Of a stretch of DNA of 7,369 bases, positions 2 to 7,261 are shown piece by piece. A program made the translations under genes and the position numbers. Positions within the stretch are counted from its first letter, which is position 1. Each line of letters begins with the position of its first letter. The notes beneath the pieces are model-generated. The model searched no databases. It was not told the DNA's origin and saw only the letters and a list, made by a program, of their open reading frames with translations. Origin of the DNA: Prolixibacteraceae bacterium (GTDB lineage Bacteria; Bacteroidota; Bacteroidia; Bacteroidales; Prolixibacteraceae); contig JAGODU010000192.1 of the NCBI GenBank assembly GCA_017998095.1, positions 1-7,369 of the forward strand, given 5' to 3'.

Positions 2-241
2 TTTGTTCGCAAACCATTAACTGCCAAGTTCATTCAATATGATGGCAGTGATGAGATGCGTGATTGGCTTAATGCTGAATACGCAGGAGTATATGTTGAT
101 GGAGGATGCCTGTTCTTTAGTGATGCAGACGAGGCTTTCCCTGAAATATTAGAAGATGATTGGTTACATATAGCAGGAGGAATCATTATAGATGTGATAG
201 CCCCGCTAAAGTTCAAAGAAATGTATGAGGAGGTGAAATAA
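2..241 (+). CDS. Small phage protein, 5'-truncated by the window edge
   Basis: The reading frame is open from the first bases, so this is the C-terminal ~79 residues of a gene starting outside the window. The internal ATG at 56 is probably not the start, because the upstream residues look like real protein. The visible N-terminal part (KPLTAKFIQYDG, then a WL pair) resembles small phage proteins that begin with a KKPVVIEAIQFDG-like strand. In those proteins the C-terminus is a 'GDWII.. GEFYPC.. F...YE' segment; here DDWLHIAGG and then FKEMYEEV take that place. The function of that family is unknown to me. A copy of the CCCGCTAAAG word (202-211) encodes APLK just before the last helix. The stop codon TAA (239-241) overlaps the next gene's ATG by one base, indicating translational coupling. 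The family assignment is from memory of motifs, not a search. Confidence 0.7.
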   Translation, partial: FVRKPLTAKFIQYDGSDEMRDWLNAEYAGVYVDGGCLFFSDADEAFPEILEDDWLHIAGGIIIDVIAPLKFKEMYEEVK

Positions 242-657
242 TGTTTAATACAACTATTCATCATAAAGAATATATACCCTATACAAAAAATGTAGAGGTA
301 AATGAGCATAGAGCACCCACAGATGAAAGCATTAAACTATTTGACGAAATACAACAACGCACTATTAATAGGGTTGTCAATTCATTTGAAATAAAAGATA
401 ATACTATTAATGCAGTTGTTGTTTACTTTGTTCATTCTATACAGATAGACAAACTTGAGTTTGTTTGTAAGTTTTATTTTAATGGGAAAGGACATCAGTT
501 CAATGGAGAAATACTGAGACATGAATTAATAAATAGTAAATACGGCAGTAATGCAGTAGCCATAGAATTAGGGAAACGGTTATGTTATTTATTTGCTGAT
601 AATGTTTTAAAAGAAGTACCAGATCTACATAAATATTTAAATAGCAACTTATGGTAA
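241..657 (+). CDS. Conserved-looking phage hypothetical protein
   Basis: This encodes 138 residues with no signal peptide or membrane segment. The segment EHRAPTDESIKLFDEIQ (about residues 22-38) resembles a motif I associate with small hypothetical proteins of phages, followed by an alternating strand region (INAVVVYFVHSIQIDKLEFVCKFYFNG) that suggests a small alpha/beta fold. I cannot assign a function. The start is coupled to the upstream stop by a one-base overlap, and the gene ends seven bases inside the next one (ATG at 651), so it is part of the same transcript. It is one of the few genes here without a copy of the CCCGCYAAAG word. Confidence 0.8.
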   Translation: MFNTTIHHKEYIPYTKNVEVNEHRAPTDESIKLFDEIQQRTINRVVNSFEIKDNTINAVVVYFVHSIQIDKLEFVCKFYFNGKGHQFNGEILRHELINSKYGSNAVAIELGKRLCYLFADNVLKEVPDLHKYLNSNLW

Positions 658-1127
658 AACATTTCTATTTTGCACTATTTATGGTGCTTATTAGCAGTAC
701 TTTAGCGGGAAATACGTACCTACATCGTAATAACGCCACATATATTGTCCTGCAACCAGGTGACTTCGGCATAGGACTACGCTACGACAGACACTTCGGT
801 AATAACGGTGTTTATACTTCGCTTGCTAAAGGACGATACAGACTTCCCGATGGTGGTTATATCAATGACCATTACAAGGCATCGTTAGGCTATATGAGGC
901 AACTTCCGCTAAAGACTAATAAACCCGTACACGATTATGCTCTTATAGGTCTTACTTATCATACTTATGGAGCAAGACAATATGGAGAGGGTATAATCAA
1001 TGAGAAAGTCTTTAAACCTATTTCCTTTGAAGTAGGAGTAGGGGCGAACATTTTCCGTTTTAAGTACGGGATACGATTTGATATACTCAAACATGAGGGT
1101 TCTATTGATTTTGGATTTACGTTTTAA
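651..1127 (+). CDS. Exported, outer-membrane beta-barrel-like protein
   Basis: This encodes 158 residues. The N-terminus is a classical signal peptide: a basic start (MVKHF), a hydrophobic core (about residues 5-17) and a small-residue cleavage region near TLAGN (about 18-21). The mature part is rich in alternating aromatic and glycine strands (YIVLQPGDFGIGLRYD, YALIGLTYHTYG, FEVGVGANIFRFKYGIRFD) and ends in an aromatic residue (DFGFTF), as expected for a small outer-membrane barrel recognised by the BAM machinery. A phage barrel of this kind could block a receptor (superinfection exclusion) or be a captured host surface protein; neither can be proved here. A CTTTAGCGGG word (700-709) encodes the end of the signal peptide, and TCCGCTAAAG (905-914) lies in a probable extracellular loop. 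It overlaps the upstream gene by 7 bp and lies 10 bp before the next. Confidence 0.75.
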   Translation: MVKHFYFALFMVLISSTLAGNTYLHRNNATYIVLQPGDFGIGLRYDRHFGNNGVYTSLAKGRYRLPDGGYINDHYKASLGYMRQLPLKTNKPVHDYALIGLTYHTYGARQYGEGIINEKVFKPISFEVGVGANIFRFKYGIRFDILKHEGSIDFGFTF

Positions 1128-1137
1128 TTTATAAACT

Positions 1138-1524
1138 ATGAACTTACTTTTAGCACTATTTCTCATTGTATTTGAGGCAGTATATGAGGGTATTAAGGAT
1201 AAAACTTTGGCGGGTGTGGTAGAGTTTATCTACCGTGCAGTTCTTACCGTCATAGCGTTTATGTGGATGGGAGGGCTGATGGTGCTTGCCCCGCCAGAGT
1301 CATCCTTATTATACACATTAGGTGGCTATCTTCTTCTTAGATTTGCTATCTTTGATGCGATATACAACCTGATGAGTGGACTACCTGTATTTTTTATTGG
1401 CACTACAAAACTGTTTGACAAAGCATGGCGTTGGTTCTTTTCTAAGACGGGCATCCCTCATGAGCATTTCTTAGCCCTGCTAAAGTTCATATGCTTACTT
1501 ATTGGAATAACTTGGTTATTATAA
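1138..1524 (+). CDS. Multi-pass inner-membrane protein, function unknown
   Basis: This encodes 128 residues, very hydrophobic. A short hydrophobic/amphipathic N-terminus (residues 1-13) is followed by probable membrane helices at about 31-52, 56-77 and 109-127. A polar segment containing FDAIYN, IGTTKLFDKAWRWFF and the basic/aromatic loop lies between the last two. No enzyme motif is visible. Size and topology are compatible with a phage membrane accessory protein or a holin-like protein, but I have no positive evidence for lysis function and no endolysin is nearby. Two CCCGCYAAAG-type words (1205-1214 inverted, 1290-1299 direct) bracket the first helix, and a third (1476-1485) starts the last helix. 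It sits 10 bp after the barrel gene and 9 bp before the SSB gene, in the same run. Confidence 0.7.
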   Translation: MNLLLALFLIVFEAVYEGIKDKTLAGVVEFIYRAVLTVIAFMWMGGLMVLAPPESSLLYTLGGYLLLRFAIFDAIYNLMSGLPVFFIGTTKLFDKAWRWFFSKTGIPHEHFLALLKFICLLIGITWLL

Positions 1525-1533
1525 TTACATTTT

Positions 1534-1974
1534 ATGGCAGATACAAAAAATTATCACACACTTGATGGTACTCTTTATGCTAAAAATACAAGACAAGTAC
1601 AAGGAGTAAAAGACCCATCACAGACTTATGAGTTTAAATCAATAGTACTGGAAGTCAAAACAATAAAAAAAATTAAAACTAAAGAAGGTAGTTATATTGA
1701 TAAGACCTTTAGCGAGCTTCCTGAATTTGACTTAGGGTATGGCGTTGACTATGATCAGTTTAGTATAGGAGATGCCATAACAGTCAAGTTTGCAGTAGAA
1801 GGTAGAGAGTACAAGTCACGTGGAGGGGAAAAGAAGGTAATGACTAAGTTAAGAGCATTATTTGTATCTTTCACGGATATTACTAAAACCCCGCCAAAGA
1901 GCAAAGACGAAGAAATCTTTGTTGCTCCTAATCCTTTGATAGATGATTTACCTGAAGATGATTTACCATTTTGA
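1534..1974 (+). CDS. ssb: Single-stranded DNA-binding protein (OB fold)
   Basis: This encodes 146 residues. The C-terminus, DDLPEDDLPF, is the hallmark acidic tip by which bacterial and phage SSBs bind partner proteins (PriA, RecO, exonuclease I and others). It follows a flexible proline-rich linker (about residues 115-136). The first ~110 residues are rich in beta strands with basic and aromatic residues (YEFKSIVLEVKTIKKIKTKEG, DAITVKFAVEGREY, KLRALFVSFTD), consistent with an OB fold. The role would be coating of single-stranded DNA in phage replication or recombination. Sequence similarity to E. coli SSB is low, so the call rests mainly on the tail and strand pattern. CTTTAGCGAG (1707-1716) and CCCGCCAAAG (1890-1899) lie in it, the second in the linker (TPPKS). 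The next gene begins 3 bp after the stop. Confidence 0.75.
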   Translation: MADTKNYHTLDGTLYAKNTRQVQGVKDPSQTYEFKSIVLEVKTIKKIKTKEGSYIDKTFSELPEFDLGYGVDYDQFSIGDAITVKFAVEGREYKSRGGEKKVMTKLRALFVSFTDITKTPPKSKDEEIFVAPNPLIDDLPEDDLPF

Positions 1975-1977
1975 TCT

Positions 1978-2214
1978 ATGAAAGCAATACTTGAATTTGA
2001 CCTTGACGAACCTGATGACAGAATGGATCATCTAAGGTGCATTAAATCCACAAATATGGCTATTGTCTTATTTGAATTTACCTATAATACATTTAAGACC
2101 GCCTATGACTATCAGGATATTAATAAGGACACTGATATGGTGGAATATCTTAAACAGAGGTTCATAGACCTTATGGATGCAAATAATGTTAATATAGACG
2201 AACTAATATCGTGA
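1978..2214 (+). CDS. Small conserved phage protein (MKAxLEFxL type)
   Basis: This encodes 78 residues, starting MKAILEFDLDEPDDRMDHLRC. It resembles a widespread small phage protein that begins MKAxLEFNLPE, followed by a helical stretch around a CxxxxxMxxALxEF-like pattern, and ends with a helix-turn such as LMDANNVNIDEL. Those proteins often lie among replication and recombination genes and have no established function that I know of. It is acidic with no membrane segment. The gene lies 3 bp after the SSB stop. Its own TGA (2212-2214) overlaps the GTG start of the next gene in a GTGA arrangement, so translation of the two is probably coupled. Confidence 0.7.
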   Translation: MKAILEFDLDEPDDRMDHLRCIKSTNMAIVLFEFTYNTFKTAYDYQDINKDTDMVEYLKQRFIDLMDANNVNIDELIS

Positions 2215-2513
2215 AATACACTAACACCATAATAAACGGAGACTTCAATATAGATGCGGTATTATCTGATAAGGTAGGACTTAGGCAGGCATCCGTCCTA
2301 TTGGCTATTCCTGTGGCTTTTGCAGGTATCGTTATACTCTCAGGTATATTACCATTTGCTGTAATGGCAGATGGGGGACGTTATGCCCGCCTGAGATATT
2401 ATCAATACCTAAAAGCAAGACAGAAGGAGCAAGGTATTGACCGCCTGCTAAAGTCCTTTGAATTAACAAAATATCAGAAACATATTATTAAATCAACACT
2501 TATAAACATATGA
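2211..2513 (+). CDS. Small single-pass membrane protein, unknown
   Basis: This encodes 100 residues from a GTG start at 2211. The start is supported by the GTGA overlap with the upstream stop; the next ATG codons are far inside. The polar N-terminus is followed by a strongly hydrophobic stretch (about residues 28-52), then a basic helical tail (YARLRYYQYLKARQKEQGIDRLLKSF) likely in the cytoplasm. No domain is recognised. The stop overlaps the next ATG (ATGA at 2510-2513), and the partner is also a membrane protein, so the two may form one membrane complex; this is an inference. CCCGCCTGAG (2386-2395) and CCTGCTAAAG (2444-2453) both fall in the tail. Confidence 0.65.
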   Translation: MKYTNTIINGDFNIDAVLSDKVGLRQASVLLAIPVAFAGIVILSGILPFAVMADGGRYARLRYYQYLKARQKEQGIDRLLKSFELTKYQKHIIKSTLINI

Positions 2514-3034
2514 CACTAAACTTATTTCTTTGGCTCTTTACTTTAATCACTTTCGTATCTTACGTAACATATATTGTGGTAAAGTATGGAATGCAGAAGT
2601 CTATATCTGCAAGCTGGAACAACTTAGAGAACCCTGTAAAGAAGAGTCTTTATAGTTGGGCTATGGCGTGCGTAGCCCTGCCAATGGCTATCATATCAGA
2701 TAATGCTATGGGTATATGGGCGGGATTCTTTCTTGCTATTACCTTTGCAGCACCAACAGGGGGCAGTAGACTTAATCATTTCCTGCACTGCCTTGGTGCT
2801 AATGTAGGTATGCTATTAGGGACACTTCAACTTATCCTTGTTTTTGGAGGGATATTCAACTGGATACTTGTAGGACTGTGTTATATTACAGTAGTTACGA
2901 TGCTCGCCATAGCAAGCAAAAGTAAGATCACTGAATCGGGTAATGCAAGCAGGTTCCCAACATCTACCTCATGGATAGAGATAGCGGTGTTCATCACTGT
3001 CATGATAGGACTATTTTTTGAGAAAGTTGTGTGA
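2510..3034 (+). CDS. Multi-pass membrane protein, unknown
   Basis: This encodes 174 residues with about six hydrophobic segments: roughly 3-25, 48-64, 66-84, 95-113, 114-134 and 154-171. Short loops include a basic stretch near KKSLYS and a polar loop near SKSKITESGNASRFP. No transporter or enzyme motif is visible and I do not recognise the family. The start is fixed by the ATGA overlap with the upstream membrane gene. It ends the first tight gene run: the TGA at 3032-3034 is followed two bases later by an exact CCCGCTAAAG word (3037-3046) in the short gap before the next gene. Confidence 0.7.
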   Translation: MTLNLFLWLFTLITFVSYVTYIVVKYGMQKSISASWNNLENPVKKSLYSWAMACVALPMAIISDNAMGIWAGFFLAITFAAPTGGSRLNHFLHCLGANVGMLLGTLQLILVFGGIFNWILVGLCYITVVTMLAIASKSKITESGNASRFPTSTSWIEIAVFITVMIGLFFEKVV

Positions 3035-3036
3035 TG

Positions 3037-3046
3037 CCCGCTAAAG
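3037..3046 (+). repeat. Exact CCCGCTAAAG word in an intergenic gap
   Basis: This is a perfect copy of the dispersed word in the 33-bp gap between two genes, in the context GATGCCCGCTAAAGTTAT. It has no inverted partner in the gap, so it is not a terminator by itself. The flank GATGCCCGCT is shared with the copy at 4984. Confidence 0.8.
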
Positions 3047-3067
3047 TTATAAATTAAAACAGCAAAG

Positions 3068-3295
3068 ATGACAGCAGAAGAATTTTTAAAAGAAATACTT
3101 GACATGAAGCATATCCCTCTTTCATTAACTCTTTCATCTAAGAACTTAATATTCCTTTTGGAAGAATATCATAATTCCTTTAGCGGGCAACCCGAACATA
3201 CGGAACCCCCGCTTGAGTTAAGAATATGTACTACCTGTGGTAAAGAGTTTAAATCTAATATTAATAATCCTATTTGTCCGAGTTGTTATCTGTAA
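3068..3295 (+). CDS. Small zinc-ribbon protein
   Basis: This encodes 75 residues. The N-terminal ~35 residues form a probable amphipathic helical part (EEFLKEILDMKHI, LIFLLEEYHN). The C-terminus carries two CxxC pairs (Cys54/Cys57 and Cys70/Cys73) separated by 12 residues, a classic zinc-ribbon knuckle pair. Such small ribbons in phages usually bind nucleic acid or protein; the substrate here is unknown. The linker between the two parts (about residues 37-51, SFSGQ..PPLEL) is encoded exactly by an inverted pair of CCCGCYAAAG-type words (3178-3217), suggesting the linker was created or remodelled by that element. The gene starts 33 bp after the upstream membrane gene and its TAA ends 5 bp before the next ATG. 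Confidence 0.7.
   Translation: MTAEEFLKEILDMKHIPLSLTLSSKNLIFLLEEYHNSFSGQPEHTEPPLELRICTTCGKEFKSNINNPICPSCYL
3178..3217. repeat. Inverted pair of the dispersed word inside a gene (linker)
   Basis: CTTTAGCGGG (3178-3187) is followed 20 bp later by CCCGCTTGAG (3208-3217). GCGGG/CCCGC pair perfectly, with partial pairing outward, so the transcript could form a stem-loop. The enclosed bases are GC-rich compared with the flanks. The element lies precisely between the helical and zinc-ribbon parts of the host gene. Confidence 0.6.
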
Positions 3296-3300
3296 AGATA

Positions 3301-3828
3301 ATGAGTTGTAAAATTTATGAGCAAATGAAAATAACCACACTTGAAATGGAGGAATGCCTTGCAAGATACTTTTCATATAGACGTAATTTGGTTATTCCAA
3401 ATGTGTCTTGGGGCTTCAATATCCATGAATGCGATTTATTGGTTGTAACTAAATCCGGTTACTTAATCGAGGTCGAAATTAAGATAAGTAAATCAGATTT
3501 AAAAGCAGACATGAAAAAGGAGCACAATCACCACGATCATTATAACAGAGTTAAAGAATTATATTTTGCCATGCCGGAAAATCTTGCAGAAGATAAGGAA
3601 TGTATTGATTTAGTTCCTGAAAATGCGGGTATTATTTTAGTTAGTAAGTGGAAGCCTAACTGGCATAAGGACTTATTTGTACAGGCAAGAACTATCCGCA
3701 AATCAAAAGTCAATAAGGCAGCCGGCAAACTATATGATAATGAAAAGTATCAACTTGCAAGGCTCGGAACTATGCGTATATGGTCGCTAAAGAAGAAAAT
3801 AATAAAAATAACCAGCCATGAAAATTGA
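3301..3828 (+). CDS. MmcB-like PD-(D/E)XK nuclease
   Basis: This encodes 175 residues from the ATG at 3301, 5 bp after the previous stop. An upstream in-frame TTG at 3274 would overlap the zinc-ribbon gene and is less likely; the ATG at 3325 is another option. The core reads ECDLLVV (Asp45), a glycine turn, then IEVEIK (Glu57, Glu59, Lys61), the D...ExK signature of PD-(D/E)XK nucleases. After it come SKSDLKAD and a YFAMPENL strand, then a VPENAGIILV strand. This order (EVK-S--D---D, FYFAVP, P---GLI) matches MmcB-type DNA-repair nucleases. The protein probably cuts or binds DNA in phage repair, recombination or host-DNA breakdown; which of these is not visible. GTCGCTAAAG at 3783-3792 is a weak copy of the dispersed word. 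The 3' end overlaps a possible small ORF. Confidence 0.75.
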   Translation: MSCKIYEQMKITTLEMEECLARYFSYRRNLVIPNVSWGFNIHECDLLVVTKSGYLIEVEIKISKSDLKADMKKEHNHHDHYNRVKELYFAMPENLAEDKECIDLVPENAGIILVSKWKPNWHKDLFVQARTIRKSKVNKAAGKLYDNEKYQLARLGTMRIWSLKKKIIKITSHEN

Positions 3829-3901
3829 ACCACTACTTTTATTTGTAAAGATTTTGGCGGGTTTCTATACATATCGCCCGCTTATGTTCAAAAACTATTG
3901 A
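3818..3901 (+). CDS. Possible 27-residue hydrophobic peptide
   Basis: An ATG at 3818, overlapping the nuclease gene by 11 bp, opens a 27-codon frame ending in TGA at 3899-3901. It encodes a peptide with a hydrophobic first half (IEPLLLFVKILAGF) and a short basic end. The overlap and the 12-bp gap to the next ATG suit this compact operon, and otherwise the 85-bp space would be unusually long. It also contains an inverted pair of the dispersed word (3852-3861 and 3877-3886), read in the same frames (LAG and RPL) that predominate elsewhere in the window. It may equally be an untranslated spacer with a stem-loop. Confidence 0.35.
   Translation: MKIEPLLLFVKILAGFYTYRPLMFKNY
3852..3886. repeat. Inverted pair of the dispersed word between genes
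   Basis: TTTTGGCGGG (3852-3861) and CCCGCTTATG (3877-3886) are separated by 15 bp of AT-rich sequence. GCGGG pairs with CCCGC. It lies between the nuclease and Lar-like genes or inside the small ORF there. It lacks a following T-tract, so it is not a typical rho-independent terminator. Confidence 0.5.
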
Positions 3902-3913
3902 AAACTATACATT

Positions 3914-4162
3914 ATGAAAAATAAAACAGTAAAATTAAAAGATGCCGAGATAAGTCTATTACCCTGTCCTTTCTGCGGTAGTACCGATCTGTCCTTCAGT
4001 TATGACACAACATACGGTCAGGGAGATCGTAGATTTAATCATGCAAGGATTGTGTGTAATAATTGCACAGGAGCAAAAGGTGATGGATACGGCTATGGAG
4101 AACCCAATGATTACGACACAATGTCCCTACGGAGGAGTTGGAATCAAAGAACCGCCCGCTAA
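3914..4162 (+). CDS. Lar-family restriction-alleviation-like zinc protein
   Basis: This encodes 82 residues. LLPCPFCGSTDL (about residues 15-26) followed by a VCNNCTGAKGDGYG segment (Cys48/Cys51) gives two CxxC pairs, and the C-terminus ends in SWNQRTAR. This 'LPCPFCG ... C..C.A ... W N.R' layout is the signature of the Lar family (restriction alleviation) and related phage zinc proteins. Rac-prophage Lar lowers type I restriction by favouring modification. Many phage relatives are untested, so that role is only possible here. The TAA stop (4160-4162) lies inside an exact CCCGCTAAAG word (4155-4164). The gap to the next ATG is 11 bp. Confidence 0.75.
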   Translation: MKNKTVKLKDAEISLLPCPFCGSTDLSFSYDTTYGQGDRRFNHARIVCNNCTGAKGDGYGYGEPNDYDTMSLRRSWNQRTAR

Positions 4163-4164
4163 AG
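4155..4164 (+). repeat. Exact CCCGCTAAAG word supplying the Lar-like stop codon
   Basis: This is a perfect copy of the dispersed word. Its internal TAA is the stop codon of the Lar-like gene, and the word ends 9 bp before the ATG of the ASCH gene at 4174. Confidence 0.8.
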
Positions 4165-4173
4165 CACAAGACT

Positions 4174-4779
4174 ATGAAAGAAAGACCAATTTTATTCAGT
4201 ACAGAAATGGTGAGAGCCATTTTAGATGGACGGAAGAGCCAGACAAGAAGGATAATTAAGCCACAACCGGAAATAATTAAGAAAGTTCCCTATTACATAG
4301 AACTTGAACAGCATTGGGGCAAATTATCATTTACCTATTCTAATGGCGAATCAAGGTTGGTAAATCCCAAATATGATATTGGAGATGTACTTTGGGTAAG
4401 GGAAACATGGAGTCCTATTGAGTTTGAAGATGGAACGCATTTCAGATATAAGGCTTCATTTGTTGAGAATAACTGCTTAAACCCCAAATGGAGACCCTCA
4501 ATCTTTATGCCTAAAGAAGCATCCCGTATAAAACTCAAAGTAACCAATATCAGAGTTGAAAGATTGCAGGATATAACGGAAGAAGATGCGGTTGCGGAGG
4601 GAATTGAGCCATTGTCAGAATATGATCCTAAAAAATATGGTTGGAGATTTAAGGATTATTTGCACAACTCATCTTGTCTGCCAAAAGCATCTTATCAGAC
4701 ACTTTGGGAATCCATTAATGGCAAAGGTTCATGGGAAGTTAATCCTTGGGTCTGGGTAATTGAATTTGAGAAACTATAA
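4174..4779 (+). CDS. ASCH-domain phage protein
   Basis: This encodes 201 residues from the ATG at 4174. An in-frame TTG at 4138 lies inside the Lar-like gene and is not needed, because family members begin close to the ERPILFS strand seen here. Hallmarks are FSTEMVRAILDGRKSQTRR (residues 7-25, the conserved basic GRKTQTRR loop), then YDIGDVLWVRETW, a beta strand ASRIKLKVTNIRVERLQDIT, EEDAVAEGI, and a C-terminal WV.NPWVWVIEFE. ASCH domains are PUA-like beta barrels predicted to bind RNA or modified nucleotides. One member, YqfB, hydrolyses N4-acetylcytidine, but for this phage subgroup no activity is established to my knowledge. No copy of the dispersed word occurs in it. It is probably the last gene of its run: the next 76 bp hold palindromes and a promoter. 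Confidence 0.85.
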   Translation: MKERPILFSTEMVRAILDGRKSQTRRIIKPQPEIIKKVPYYIELEQHWGKLSFTYSNGESRLVNPKYDIGDVLWVRETWSPIEFEDGTHFRYKASFVENNCLNPKWRPSIFMPKEASRIKLKVTNIRVERLQDITEEDAVAEGIEPLSEYDPKKYGWRFKDYLHNSSCLPKASYQTLWESINGKGSWEVNPWVWVIEFEKL

Positions 4780-4797
4780 TGGTGTAATTTTCATTAG

Positions 4798-4827
4798 TTA
4801 CATGTAAGGGACAATATTTACATGTAA
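4798..4827. promoter_or_regulatory. Two identical 10-bp palindromes, likely operator pair
   Basis: TTACATGTAA occurs at 4798-4807 and again at 4818-4827, both perfect palindromes, start-to-start distance 20 bp (about two helical turns, same DNA face). They lie immediately upstream of the TACCTTTG promoter element at 4839-4846, and the second overlaps the position where a -33 element would be. This is the expected layout for a dimeric regulator binding cooperatively. The downstream gene encodes a helix-turn-helix and a winged-helix gene lies further on; either could be the regulator. Confidence 0.65.
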
Positions 4828-4838
4828 AATATATTTTT

Positions 4839-4846
4839 TACCTTTG
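4839..4846 (+). promoter_or_regulatory. Bacteroidota -7 promoter element (TACCTTTG)
   Basis: TACCTTTG matches the TAnnTTTG -7 consensus of the Bacteroidota primary sigma factor. No good TTTG -33 element is present at the usual distance; TTTA at 4817-4820 is the nearest, so the promoter may need an activator or be repressed at the palindromes. Transcription would begin around 4851-4854, only a few bases before the ATG at 4856. Confidence 0.6.
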
Positions 4847-4855
4847 TCTAAATTT

Positions 4856-5599
4856 ATGGAAATGAAAATAGACGAAGGTAAATGTATTTATGTATTGTTT
4901 AATTCTATTACCAAATACACCAAAATAGGCATTACGGATAATATAGAATCAAGGATAACATCATTGGAGAATGCTTGTGGATGCCCGCTTGAGTTAATAT
5001 ACAAAACTAAACACCTTATATGTGCCGAGATATATGAGTCTAATATTCATGCCACACTATCTGAATATCGCAAGAAGGGCGAATGGTTTGAACTACCATC
5101 ACCCAACCATGCTGTTGATATAGTTGAGGCGGCTATTAAAGAAGCAACAAGTGATGTTCTTGTGGAAAATTATAAAAAAGGATATTCAATATCCAGTATG
5201 GCTAAAGAATACCAAGTATCACGTCAGGCAATACTCGCCCGCCTTAAAAAATACGGAGTATATGACGCAAAAGGTCAAATATATGAAGTAACACCTAATG
5301 CCTGCAAAACAGCATTTATAACACAACTTGGTAAAAAAGACAATAAGGCACATCATATATCTACCGTAGATGAATCATCTGACGATACTATCTATCTTGA
5401 TGGCGAAGTACCCGATCTCCCGCTAAGAAATCTTAAAAGAATAGAACCCAATATCAACTCCAATGGAGAATGGTATCAGGTATCTATGTTTAAGGATGGT
5501 GAGTTCATTTACTCATATACCCGTGATATTAATAAGGCAAGGGCGTACATACAAGGAGTAAGAGCAGCCGAATATGCCGACACAACCAAACCCCGCTAA
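4856..5599 (+). CDS. T5orf172/MUG113-type GIY-YIG protein with HTH
   Basis: This encodes 247 residues from the ATG at 4856. A TTG at 4844 falls in the promoter element and the ATG at 4862 is an alternative. The N-terminal ~85 residues read IYVLFN..TKYTKIGIT, SRITSLENACGCPLELIYKT, then EIYESNIHATL and KKGEWFEL. This is the GIY-YIG-like order of the T5orf172/MUG113 families, with the catalytic-type Arg, Glu, His and GEWF residues present. Residues ~110-138 (GYSISSMAKEYQVSRQAILARLKKYGV) form a helix-turn-helix. The last ~100 residues are unassigned, with strand-rich WYQVSMFKDGEFIYSYT. The protein probably binds and cuts DNA, and may regulate its own palindrome-bearing promoter (inference). Dispersed words at 4984, 5238, 5419 and 5592 fall in it; the last contains the TAA stop. 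Confidence 0.75.
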   Translation: MEMKIDEGKCIYVLFNSITKYTKIGITDNIESRITSLENACGCPLELIYKTKHLICAEIYESNIHATLSEYRKKGEWFELPSPNHAVDIVEAAIKEATSDVLVENYKKGYSISSMAKEYQVSRQAILARLKKYGVYDAKGQIYEVTPNACKTAFITQLGKKDNKAHHISTVDESSDDTIYLDGEVPDLPLRNLKRIEPNINSNGEWYQVSMFKDGEFIYSYTRDINKARAYIQGVRAAEYADTTKPR

Positions 5600-5601
5600 G
5601 G
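5592..5601 (+). repeat. Dispersed word (CCCGCTAAGG) supplying a stop codon
   Basis: This is one mismatch from CCCGCTAAAG. The TAA within it (5597-5599) ends the GIY-YIG gene, 7 bp before the ATG at 5607. Confidence 0.6.
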
Positions 5602-5606
5602 CTATA

Positions 5607-6020
5607 ATGACCTACATATATCCCTCATATAACCCCTATACGTATCTAACCATACTAACTATCCACTTTATCCTGTTATGCCTCTATATGGCCTATACGT
5701 ATACGCCATTGTGCTATGAAAATCACCTTATATGTAACAGGGAGACAAACATTGACTCAACAGATAATGATAAATGGTGCATGAACATTGATATAGCGGA
5801 TGGTAGTGTGTGTATGAACATTGAACCTTATGGGGGGTCTATGCATACTTTGGCGGGGTCGGTCGCCTGTTCGGAAGTCGTTTTGTTGATCCCCGCCAGC
5901 TCCAAAAAGAATTCTTTTTACCCTGTATTAAGTAAAAAAGCTGCCAGCCTGTCAGTTTTGCCTAAAAAGCAAATATTTAGGGAATTGAATATCAATAGAA
6001 TACATTTCTATTTGACATAA
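5607..6020 (+). CDS. Doubtful membrane protein ORF with short internal repeats
   Basis: The ORF encodes 137 residues from the ATG at 5607, 7 bp after the previous stop; an ATG at 5574 would overlap the GIY-YIG gene by 26 bp. The start is rich in Tyr/Pro (YIYPSYNPYTYL), then a membrane helix (about residues 13-33). After that the sequence changes: CMNID and CMNIE repeats 11 residues apart (DNA repeat TGYATGAACATTGA at 5778-5791 and 5811-5824), a GC-rich stem-loop (5848-5899), then a basic stretch with Ser/Lys repeats. The first third looks like a genuine small membrane protein. The rest may be a degraded or noncoding extension that happens to stay open. No family is recognised. Confidence 0.45.
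   Translation: MTYIYPSYNPYTYLTILTIHFILLCLYMAYTYTPLCYENHLICNRETNIDSTDNDKWCMNIDIADGSVCMNIEPYGGSMHTLAGSVACSEVVLLIPASSKKNSFYPVLSKKAASLSVLPKKQIFRELNINRIHFYLT
5848..5899. repeat. Stem-loop from inverted pair of the dispersed word, GC-rich loop
   Basis: TGGCGGGG (5851-5858) pairs perfectly over 8 bp with CCCCGCCA (5891-5898), enclosing a 32-nt loop. The outer arms are CTTTGGCGGG (5848-5857) and CCCGCCAG (5892-5899). The loop is markedly GC-richer than the flanks. A 16-bp palindrome (AAAAAGAATTCTTTTT, 5904-5919) follows, whose second arm provides a T-run. The whole could act as a terminator or RNA-stabilising structure. Confidence 0.6.
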
Positions 6021-6127
6021 TGCTAATTATAGGGTTTTGTTAAAATTTAGGAAAACAGGGCTAATAAAGTTAATTAACAAAGGTCTAAATAACTGATTAT
6101 TAAAACAAACAAAGATATTTTAACAAA
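6021..6127. other. AT-rich intergenic spacer
   Basis: This 107-bp gap lies before the winged-helix gene. I see no convincing TAnnTTTG on the + strand. TATCTTTG appears on the - strand (6110-6117) but no gene faces that way. The A-rich stretch before the ATG (6101-6127) is a typical unstructured Bacteroidota leader. Confidence 0.4.
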
Positions 6128-6499
6128 ATGACTCATGCCACTAATATTAATAACTTGTATATATTGTCAGGATTATTACATTATAAGGCCACTAAACAGG
6201 CAAGGGATCAATACAAGATTAACACACACCAGATAACAGTATTATTTGCCTGTTATGTTTGTAGTGTATTTATTAAGGATATATTTCTTATATATAATGT
6301 ATCACAGATATTGAATAGTTATAATTACAAGAGATTAAGGGAGTATATTAATAGTCTTGTAAGTATTGGATTGATAACTTTAGCGGGCGCAAATAAATAT
6401 AAATTGTCTTCTGATGGTTTGCAGGTAATCCAGGATATTAATAATAATATGGATAAGATACTATATAATTTTTGTAATGTTTATAATATTGACCTTTAG
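6128..6499 (+). CDS. MarR-like winged-helix transcriptional regulator
   Basis: This encodes 123 residues. After an N-terminal dimerisation-like helix (YILSGLLHYKATKQARDQY), residues ~34-80 form a helical DNA-binding core (HQITVLFACYVCSVFIKDIFLI, VSQILNSYNYKRLREYINSLVSIGLI). Residues ~82-97 make the hairpin wing (ITLAGANKYKLSSDG), then a long helix (LQVIQDINNNMDKILYNFCN). This is the order of MarR and related winged-helix proteins, though the 'ligand' helices are short. It probably binds DNA as a dimer and controls phage genes; the TTACATGTAA pair at 4798-4827 is a possible but unproven target. An exact CTTTAGCGGG word (6378-6387) encodes the tip of the wing (TLAG), and a second (6494-6503) supplies the TAG stop. 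Confidence 0.7.
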   Translation: MTHATNINNLYILSGLLHYKATKQARDQYKINTHQITVLFACYVCSVFIKDIFLIYNVSQILNSYNYKRLREYINSLVSIGLITLAGANKYKLSSDGLQVIQDINNNMDKILYNFCNVYNIDL

Positions 6500-6503
6500 C
6501 GGG
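6494..6503 (-). repeat. Exact dispersed word (inverted) supplying a stop codon
   Basis: CTTTAGCGGG on the + strand; the TAG at 6497-6499 is the stop codon of the winged-helix gene. This is the third gene in the window whose stop is inside the word. Confidence 0.75.
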
Positions 6504-6518
6504 CAAAACATGACGTTC

Positions 6519-6534
6519 ATTAAATCGCTTTAAT
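6519..6534. terminator. Weak candidate stem-loop after the winged-helix gene
   Basis: ATTAAA (6519-6524) and TTTAAT (6529-6534) form a 6-bp stem around a TCGC loop. The stem is AT-only and the T-rich stretches follow only after 15-20 bases, so termination activity is doubtful. Confidence 0.25.
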
Positions 6535-6575
6535 ATCACTTTGCCTTAAAATATTTTTATTATTTTTATTATTGT

Positions 6576-6596
6576 GTTAATTTACAGTTAATTACA
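6576..6596. repeat. Adjacent direct repeat GTTAATTTACA / GTTAATTACA
   Basis: Two nearly identical units (6576-6586 and 6587-6596) lie in tandem with an 11-bp period, about one helical turn, 24 bp upstream of the -33 element of the next promoter. They could be half-sites for a regulator bound in tandem. AT-rich composition makes chance similarity more likely than for the 4798-4827 palindromes. Confidence 0.4.
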
Positions 6597-6619
6597 ATTA
6601 TCATTTTTTTGCTTAAAAA

Positions 6620-6651
6620 TTTGCATTGTATTTTTTGCTGGTTTAATTTTG
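6620..6651 (+). promoter_or_regulatory. Bacteroidota promoter (TTTG - 20 bp - TAATTTTG)
   Basis: TTTG at 6620-6623 and TAATTTTG at 6644-6651 are separated by 20 bp, matching the TTTG-N19-21-TAnnTTTG consensus of the Bacteroidota primary sigma factor. Transcription would begin near 6657, about 22 bases before the ATG at 6680. It is the best promoter in the window and drives the last genes. Confidence 0.75.
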
Positions 6652-6679
6652 GTATATTGTTTAACCAAATTTATGAACC

Positions 6680-7042
6680 ATGAAAACAAAATTATCTTTT
6701 AATAATCTTGATGAGATGTTAAAAAGTCCCGAGTATGAAATTTGGGAATCTGAAACTTTGCTTAATATACAATATCAGATTATTAATGGTGATCCTGATT
6801 TAAGTATTGATGAAATTATTGAGTGCAATGATAATGGTTTGTTTGGTCATTCGCATAGGGAATTTATTGAGTGCTGGAGTGAATATCTGGATAACCTGAA
6901 AGTTTGGGAATCTAAATATGATTTACCACAGGACAAACCAAAGTTTGATATTATGCGTTTAACTTATAACAAGATTAAAAAAGAAATAGATAATTGTTAT
7001 AAATACCATACTGATCATTTTACTATTAATGATATTATTTAA
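6680..7042 (+). CDS. Acidic phage hypothetical protein
   Basis: This encodes 120 residues, polar and mostly helical in appearance, with no signal peptide, membrane helix or cysteine cluster. Recurrent Trp/Glu patches (YEIWESETLL, FIECWSEYLDNLKVWESKYDL) suggest a protein-binding surface. The N-terminal net charge after MKTK is acidic. I do not recognise a family. It is the first gene behind the strong promoter at 6620-6651, so it may be highly or early expressed; small acidic phage proteins with such placement are sometimes host-takeover or anti-defence factors, but nothing here shows that. Its start context (TTGTTTAACCAA, then ATGAAAACAAAATTAT) is repeated before the next gene. Confidence 0.7.
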   Translation: MKTKLSFNNLDEMLKSPEYEIWESETLLNIQYQIINGDPDLSIDEIIECNDNGLFGHSHREFIECWSEYLDNLKVWESKYDLPQDKPKFDIMRLTYNKIKKEIDNCYKYHTDHFTINDII

Positions 7043-7070
7043 CCATTGTTTAACCAATTATTTTACTATT

Positions 7071-7235
7071 ATGAAAACAAAATTATTCTTATTCAGTATT
7101 TTTTCACACCCTTACAAAATAATGCGGTGTAAGGCAGTTAATAATCTTTGTCCCTTTATAGGATGGAACGAGACTGCAATTCATATAAATATCCCTTTGT
7201 TTATAGGATGTTTAATAATTAATGTTTATAGATAG
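7071..7235 (+). CDS. Small hydrophobic hypothetical protein
   Basis: This encodes 54 residues from the ATG at 7071; an upstream ATG at 7029 overlaps the previous gene and is less likely, because the sequence just before 7071 repeats the leader of the gene at 6680. The N-terminus (MKTKLFLFSIFSH) is hydrophobic, and a second hydrophobic stretch (INIPLFIGCLIINVY) lies at the C-terminus, with three cysteines overall. It could be a small membrane protein. The start is nearly identical in DNA to the start of the previous gene, so the ORF may partly result from duplication of a leader rather than be an old gene. The TAG stop is followed one base later by an inverted pair of the dispersed word. Confidence 0.45.
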   Translation: MKTKLFLFSIFSHPYKIMRCKAVNNLCPFIGWNETAIHINIPLFIGCLIINVYR

Positions 7236-7236
7236 A

Positions 7237-7261
7237 CTTTAGCAGGCGATCCCGCCAAAAG
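7237..7261. repeat. Close inverted pair of the dispersed word after a gene
   Basis: CTTTAGCAGG (7237-7246) and CCCGCCAAAAG (7251-7261) face each other across 4 bp, making an imperfect palindrome directly after a stop codon. Pairing is interrupted (best inner stem GGCG/CGCC), and a TTATATTTA stretch follows. It may be a weak terminator or simply the shortest version of the paired element. Confidence 0.5.

Follow-up and report, generated by a model that had tools for sequence, protein, structure and literature searches.

The 7,369-bp stretch of DNA analyzed here (Prolixibacteraceae bacterium assembly GCA_017998095.1, contig JAGODU010000192.1), referred to in the following as the window, contains many copies of a 10-bp word, CCCGCYAAAG. 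We conclude that this is a real, lineage-specific, dispersed recognition word of one group of Bacteroidota tailed phages. The best reading, a tentative one, is that it is recognized by a phage-encoded protein, and the chief rival is a polar, Chi-like role.

The word in the window and in related phages

The window held ten exact matches to CCCGCYAAAG, spread over both strands, where 200 dinucleotide shuffles averaged 0.02 and never exceeded 1, and 19 matches with at most one mismatch, where the shuffles averaged 0.34 and reached 3. The reversed word was absent, both exactly and with one mismatch. An earlier note on the window had counted ten exact and nine one-mismatch copies and put the random expectation well under one; its counts, strands and span were correct. 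Across the 19 sites, each of the ten word positions carried 1.0–2.5 bits, and the flanking columns were all at or below 0.6 bits. The note knew of no description of the word, and no title describing it was found among the matches listed for the word or for dispersed words in phages and Bacteroidota, in a search that left subscription papers mostly uncovered.

Viral contigs were scanned for two convergent copies of the word, and four contigs were returned. Only one of them (L158) was dense in the word; two (L157 and L159) had the pair itself, and the fourth (L160) had 7 copies in 177 kb. The dense contig belongs to an 84,145-bp record, IMGVR_UViG_3300037075_000004 (G408), which carried 31 exact copies against 0.26 expected from a second-order Markov model, and 77 one-mismatch copies against 7.3. 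Under a third-order model, CCCGCTAAAG was still its top dispersed word. The large terminase and portal of G408 matched PHROGs head-and-packaging families. The open reading frame (ORF) at 20577–22046 matched no PHROGs family and was named the putative capsid gene because it adjoins the portal and terminase. A profile search with the putative capsid protein gave 12 loci, G408 included; no match was found in the phage collection, nor in 395 Bacteroidota genomes, the latter in a search run without a positive control. Relatives of the putative capsid protein numbered 201 in all. The records compared were either identical in DNA or, for the most part, alike at about 65–75%. Two of the 12 loci were identical pieces of G408, with 6 and 4 exact copies. 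Three further long records carried the word: G421 (85 kb, 73% identity) with 10 exact copies against 0.14 expected, G424 (77 kb, 54%) with 5 against 0.20, and G425 (86 kb, 54%) with 6 against 0.27. Three identical pieces of G421 had 2, 1 and 1 exact copies, and a 6.5-kb locus (G423, 53%) had one, as did each of three lineage fragments found through the terminase (L168, L171 and L172). The same comparison in the window gave 10 against 0.01. The exact reversed word was absent from G408, G421 and G424, and occurred once in G425.

The window belongs to this lineage, since three of its genes are shared, in the same order and on the same strand, with G424 and G425. These are an SSB-like gene (phrog_4932; 1534–1974, + strand), common to the related phages; a small gene (1978–2214, +), common to G424 and G425; and a gene for a winged-helix protein (6128–6499, +), to which each of the four long phage records has a relative.

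The excess was also compared with synonymous-codon shuffles, using ORFs that were called mechanically (at least 50 codons, longest first), those of the window being picked by hand from the ORF list. In G408, 22 exact copies lay inside ORFs, compared to a mean of 0.59 and a maximum of 3 in 300 shuffles. The corresponding numbers were 6 against 0.08 in the window, 9 against 0.42 in G421, 4 against 0.54 in G424 (maximum 4) and 4 against 0.24 in G425 (maximum 2). For the wider motif CCCGCHADAG, 15 in-ORF copies were seen against 1.52 in G424, and 20 against 1.32 in G425. The earlier note had held that its claim would fall if a codon-aware model or conserved protein motifs accounted for the copies; the excess survives codon shuffling, and it reaches beyond the window, with the much larger G408 exceeding both Markov and shuffle expectations and three more long relatives sharing the word. 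The note's idea that the word is of a recognition type and dispersed over the two strands is supported.

Outside the lineage, the word was scarce or absent. Among the best 40 of 78 records, the terminase neighbors of G408 were Cellulophaga, Flavobacterium and Maribacter phages and one environmental podovirus, at 23–25% identity. No copies were found in four of these distant relatives: the Cellulophaga phages phi46:3 and phi13:2, an elemo phage of Flavobacterium, and MW202828. In a comparison of dispersed words that covered the elemo phage and MW202828 up to base 60,000, phi46:3, phi13:2 and elemo had no standout word; the filter used would also miss G424, since the scores of these phages are not exceeded by its best word. 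Among 152 loci found through two window genes, the phrog_874 gene (best 80 of 584 confirmed relatives) and the MmcB-like gene (72 loci), some of them overlapping, six had one exact copy and none had more.

The note had also suggested that the word might mark self DNA. Each of 395 Bacteroidota genomes, 139 of which had a match, contained the 11-mer GCCCGCTAAAG 0–6 times, and a partly overlapping set of 247 (116 with a match) 0–5 times each; a mark of host DNA thus finds no support in this sample, although the true host may lie outside it. In nine bacterial genomes CCCGCYAAAG itself occurred 1 to 41 times; the reversed control was more frequent in eight of them, and the ninth had 8 against 5.

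Form, placement and turnover of the copies

The wider family motif, CCCGCHADAG, occurred 63, 15, 20 and 25 times in G408, G421, G424 and G425, respectively, and 11 times in the window. The favored form shifts between related phages: G408 favors CCCGCTAAAG (20 times), CCCGCCAAAG (11) and CCCGCAAGAG (11), G425 favors CCCGCTATAG (10), and G424 has no clear favorite.

Most copies lie in genes, with an excess outside them. In G408, 22 of the 31 exact copies were inside ORFs and 9 were not wholly within one ORF, although non-ORF sequence makes up only 6–7% of the record. Among exact copies on the same strand as the gene, 9 of 32 lay 5–40 nt upstream of a start codon, compared to 5.3% of random places (P ≈ 3e-5); on the opposite strand the count was 3 of 30. 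In the window, three genes take their stop codon from a copy of the word (4155, 5592 and 6494). The tests of start-codon distance, polarity and stop-codon copies were chosen post hoc, after the data had been seen.

The spacing of copies in G408 was not significantly regular (coefficient of variation 0.89, P 0.12). Close pairs, with a gap of at most 60, were rarer than random in the window, G408, G424 and G425 (6 against about 14.3, summed). Five of the six converge, with no fixed gap, and none of the readings considered below accounts for this convergence.

Individual copies appear to come and go. A tendency of copies to be conserved at the same place between orthologs (23 of 222 tests) disappeared with a flank control: in-gene copies had a DNA identity of 0.555 and their flanks 0.542 (sign-flip P 0.23 over 137 comparisons, which are not independent). 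Alignment gaps contained 8 of 152 word sites and 41 of 831 control places, which is no excess for the word. Because there was neither an excess in gaps nor better conservation than in the flanks, we infer that copies are gained and lost by substitution while their density is maintained. This bears on a question the earlier note had raised, whether copies are conserved or gained and lost between relatives, and favors the latter.

The copies also have a partial directional lean that is independent of transcription. Over the four long records, CCCGCHADAG words ran with the putative capsid gene in a ratio of 84:39 (G408 43:20, G421 10:5, G424 12:8, G425 19:6), made up of 35:17 for exact words and 49:22 for others. 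The lean was present in the late arm (exact 21:9, other 20:12) and also in the early arm, where the genes run the opposite way (exact 14:8, other 29:10). Other CCCGC words leaned in the opposite direction (161:236), and the 124 one-mismatch words outside CCCGCHADAG showed no polarity (66:58). Exact words in G424 stood at 1:4. Of the strand and position biases that the note had thought worth looking for, a lean over the four records and an excess before start codons were found, but the exact words of the window did not lean (5:5).

A candidate reader and competing explanations

We propose, tentatively and with somewhat less than even confidence, that the copies are asymmetric recognition sites owned by this one Bacteroidota tailed-phage lineage, and that they would be read by a phage-encoded DNA-binding protein, most likely the small winged-helix protein encoded at 6128–6499. 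It would act in a mode like that of mycobacteriophage repressor/stoperator systems; binding would regulate the phage, and the copy where the protein's own gene ends would serve for self-control.

The exact word at 6494–6503 (−) spans the TAG stop of the winged-helix gene (CTTTAG/CGGG, the slash marking the end of the stop codon), and the same sequence or a variant stands at the stop codon of the orthologs in G421, G424 and G425, where the sequence downstream shows no similarity between phages by eye. Only four of 499 ORFs in the five sequences end TAG/CGGG, and all four are winged-helix orthologs. The family is divergent, its members being 21–31% identical to that of the window. The window protein scored 21.2 bits against Pfam HTH_45, below the cut-off of 25.5; a protein search returned only the window's own protein, and a sequence profile gave weak matches to solved structures, with E values of 0.14 and above. 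A fold model built from the five sequences was of MarR type (pLDDT 88.7), with TcaR and MepR among the best matches at a TM of about 0.7. The fixed copy, the divergence of the family and the predicted fold together make this protein the leading candidate for a self-controlling reader, and they lend indirect support to the earlier note's guess that a phage protein binds the word.

Several observations weigh against this proposal. G408, the record richest in copies, has no copy at the stop codon of the winged-helix gene, the nearest word starting 35 nt past it. The usual targets of MarR proteins are palindromes, bound by a dimer; the word, by contrast, is asymmetric, and its paired copies have no fixed gap. 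No viral fold matched at E 0.001, the best viral match being weak (E 2.2e-3), and a scan of 26 of the 119 ORFs of G408 found no lysogeny gene, integrase included. In the window and the four records, exact words were oriented with local transcription 32 times and against it 30 times, unlike stoperators; most copies lie in ORFs, where they are kept no better than their flanks. Two lineage fragments, G417 (5.8 kb, 81%) and G422 (16.2 kb, 64%), had no exact copy, and in G424 other dispersed words outrank this one.

The best phage precedent that we found is the stoperator, which is tied to repression in mycobacteriophages. The stoperators of Cluster A mycobacteriophages are short asymmetric sites, 24 in L5 and 34 in Bxb1 (PMC3029335), and their consensus differs between related phages together with the repressor (PMC6550527). 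The word is similar in being short, asymmetric and present in tens per genome, in having a consensus that varies with phage lineage (CCCGCTATAG in G425; CCCGCTAAAG, CCCGCCAAAG and CCCGCAAGAG in G408), and in having a possible reader of helix-turn-helix type, here only a candidate, the MarR-fold gene of the window and four long records. Stoperators are 13 bp long, mainly intergenic and oriented with transcription, whereas the word is 10 bp long, lies mostly in ORFs with an excess outside them, and is indifferent to local transcription. Because the copies differ in placement and orientation, we do not class the word as a stoperator. It also resembles the start-associated sequences of Cluster K mycobacteriophages, as a repeated phage motif near gene starts; those sequences are known from short intergenic gaps before genes, whereas only a minority of word copies lie before genes. 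An asymmetric, dense word that turns over within genes, leans one way and drifts between relatives makes these Bacteroidota phages a directly testable system, in which five variants of the candidate reader can each be matched in vitro with the word form of its own phage.

The directional lean is the best argument for a different role, possible though on balance rather unlikely, in which a Chi-like or polar word governs the processing of phage DNA ends. It would protect them from a nuclease, either the phage's own or one of the AddAB/RecBCD type from the host, or direct recombination by that nuclease, and it would be selected for density and direction and not for place. Chi itself is dispersed over genes and gaps, with a genome-wide directional lean, and the word has the same asymmetric, dispersed distribution on both strands, with turnover by substitution and a lean that holds in both arms, though the early-arm genes run the opposite way, and that is reversed for other CCCGC words. 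Its complement, CTTTAGCGGG, contains AGCGG, the Chi of B. subtilis AddAB (PMC4824097); the match may be due to chance. Chi is a word of the host, and no sampled Bacteroidota genome, in a sample that may not include the true host, had more than 6 copies of the tested 11-mer; the favored form of the phage word also shifts between related phages. Ten positions are also long for a Chi. The lean was tested only after the data had been seen, and it is missing from the one-mismatch words outside the motif and from the exact words of G424 and the window.

The copies could instead serve another phage function, such as replication priming, packaging, DNA compaction or control by a different phage transcription factor, which we consider unlikely. 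In favor of this, G408 encodes exonuclease-like, Mre11-like phosphoesterase, endonuclease VII and primosomal-like proteins, and the sites, a few close pairs aside, are unclustered. However, no positional link was found between these genes and the word, and the single place-conserved copy unique to one gene family is that at the winged-helix gene.

A broader idea, which we also hold to be improbable, is a phage-owned, polar self-DNA code: a word of about 10 bp kept at genome-wide density and direction, with lineage dialects that drift together with a phage-encoded reader. Genome-wide recognition words, such as Chi, uptake words and HIP1, are known mainly as bacterial features. DNA uptake sequences are likewise of the 10-bp class, and the lineage dialects of the phage word are like theirs, but they are chromosomal words of competent bacterial species. 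If true, the nuclease, recombination or packaging machinery of the phage would read from the code what DNA belongs to the phage and which way to run, and phages would have their own equivalent of Chi or uptake words.

The earlier note had also suggested remnants of a small palindromic element, and scattered half-copies of a REP-like mobile element are disfavored as very improbable. Five of the six close pairs converge, and a Bacteroidota genome (G201) has a REP-like palindrome containing CCCGCTAAAGCGGG; against this, most copies are single asymmetric words without informative flanks, close pairs are fewer than random, alignment gaps show no excess, no palindromic unit is seen inserted at new places, and after the window copies the other half of the G201 palindrome is missing. 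Finally, we give practically no credence to chance, to base composition or codon usage, or to conserved protein motifs. For the excess taken together these are refuted: neither shuffles, of nucleotides or of codons, nor Markov models nor the reversed word reproduce the numbers for the whole set, even though some in-gene copies may follow the protein (for example, CTTTGGCGGG in the portal gene) and the codon shuffles of G424 reach its four exact in-ORF copies.

Individual sites and other observations

The exact word CCCGCTAAAG at 202–211 (+) is centered 34 nt upstream of the ATG of the next gene (241). The form CCCGCCAAAG occurs within ORF 1138–1524 (1205–1214, −) and near the 3′ end of the SSB-like ORF (1890–1899, +), where G424 has the word at the same place. 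Further exact words occupy the gap separating ORFs 2510–3034 and 3068–3295 (3037–3046, +), give the TAA stop of ORF 3914–4162 just upstream of the next ATG at 4174 (4155–4164, +), and lie within the winged-helix gene (6378–6387, −). One-mismatch words are TCCGCTAAAG at 905–914 (+), CCCGCCAGAG at 1290–1299 (+), CCTGCTAAAG at 1476–1485 (+) and 2444–2453 (+), CTCGCTAAAG at 1707–1716 (−) and CCCGCTAAGG at 5592–5601 (+), which gives the TAA stop of ORF 4856–5599.

Some copies face each other. A convergent pair at 3178–3217 consists of an exact word (3178–3187, −) and the degenerate form CCCGCTTGAG (3208–3217, +), and at 5848–5901 an exact word (5848–5857, −) faces the degenerate CCCGCCAGCT (5892–5901, +). 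Two convergent pairs are intergenic: the one-mismatch word CCCGCCAAAA (3852–3861, −) with the degenerate CCCGCTTATG (3877–3886, +) at 3852–3886, and, with a gap of 4, the one-mismatch words CCTGCTAAAG (7237–7246, −) and CCCGCCAAAA (7251–7260, +) at 7237–7260. The degenerate CCCGCTTGAG is also found at 4984, and CCCGCCTGAG is a further degenerate form in the window.

The exact word at 700–709 (−) is close to the 5′ end of ORF 651–1127 and reads TLAG in the sense of the gene. Exported-looking genes of G408 (L166, 2471–2914) and G425 (27751–28197) share the placement of their word, which falls in a signal-peptide-like region and is translated as TLAG or TIAG; no ortholog pairing was found for ORF 651–1127. 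The placement of these copies may reflect a protein constraint.

The window is an entire metagenome contig and apparently the early region of its phage lineage. Besides the SSB-like and winged-helix proteins, it encodes an MmcB-like nuclease, a Lar-like zinc ribbon and a T5orf172 protein, which we take to be of GIY-YIG type. Its promoter elements of the TAnnTTTG type and the named relatives of its lineage point to a Bacteroidota origin. Upstream of the T5orf172 gene (4856–5599), beside a promoter-like box, TACCTTTG, are two TTACATGTAA palindromes (4798–4807 and 4818–4827) that look like an operator pair.

G408 (L163–L167) has a second word family, GTGCGGCTACCAATA, with 14–24 copies of its 9- and 10-mers; this looks like a clustered repeat, as it fails the dispersion filter. 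In addition to the exonuclease-like, Mre11-like phosphoesterase and endonuclease VII proteins, L164–L166 of G408 encode DNA methyltransferase and PAPS-reductase-like proteins.

Among the loci found through window genes, strong repeated words turned out to be tandem repeats in L120, L104, L023, L056, L069 and L100, and short palindromes in L027 and L017; in L027 (1474–11318) the perfect palindrome ATCCGTATACGGAT recurs at six scattered places, which are likely to be operators. G201 had three copies of the word in 9.4 kb and was rejected as a carrier, its REP-like palindrome being another thing: it recurs on contig 1 (L153–L154, about 3104353–3132894) as GATACTTC-CCCGCTAAAGCGGG-CTCAGTATG, with a variant having CCCGCCAACGGCGGGG, and the phage word inside it looks coincidental. 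Another phage, the Manatee Spring podovirus (MW202828, L208–L210), has a dispersed site of its own, consisting of 11 dispersed TCGTTAACGA palindromes inside a longer GTGTCGTTAACGACAC-type inverted repeat.

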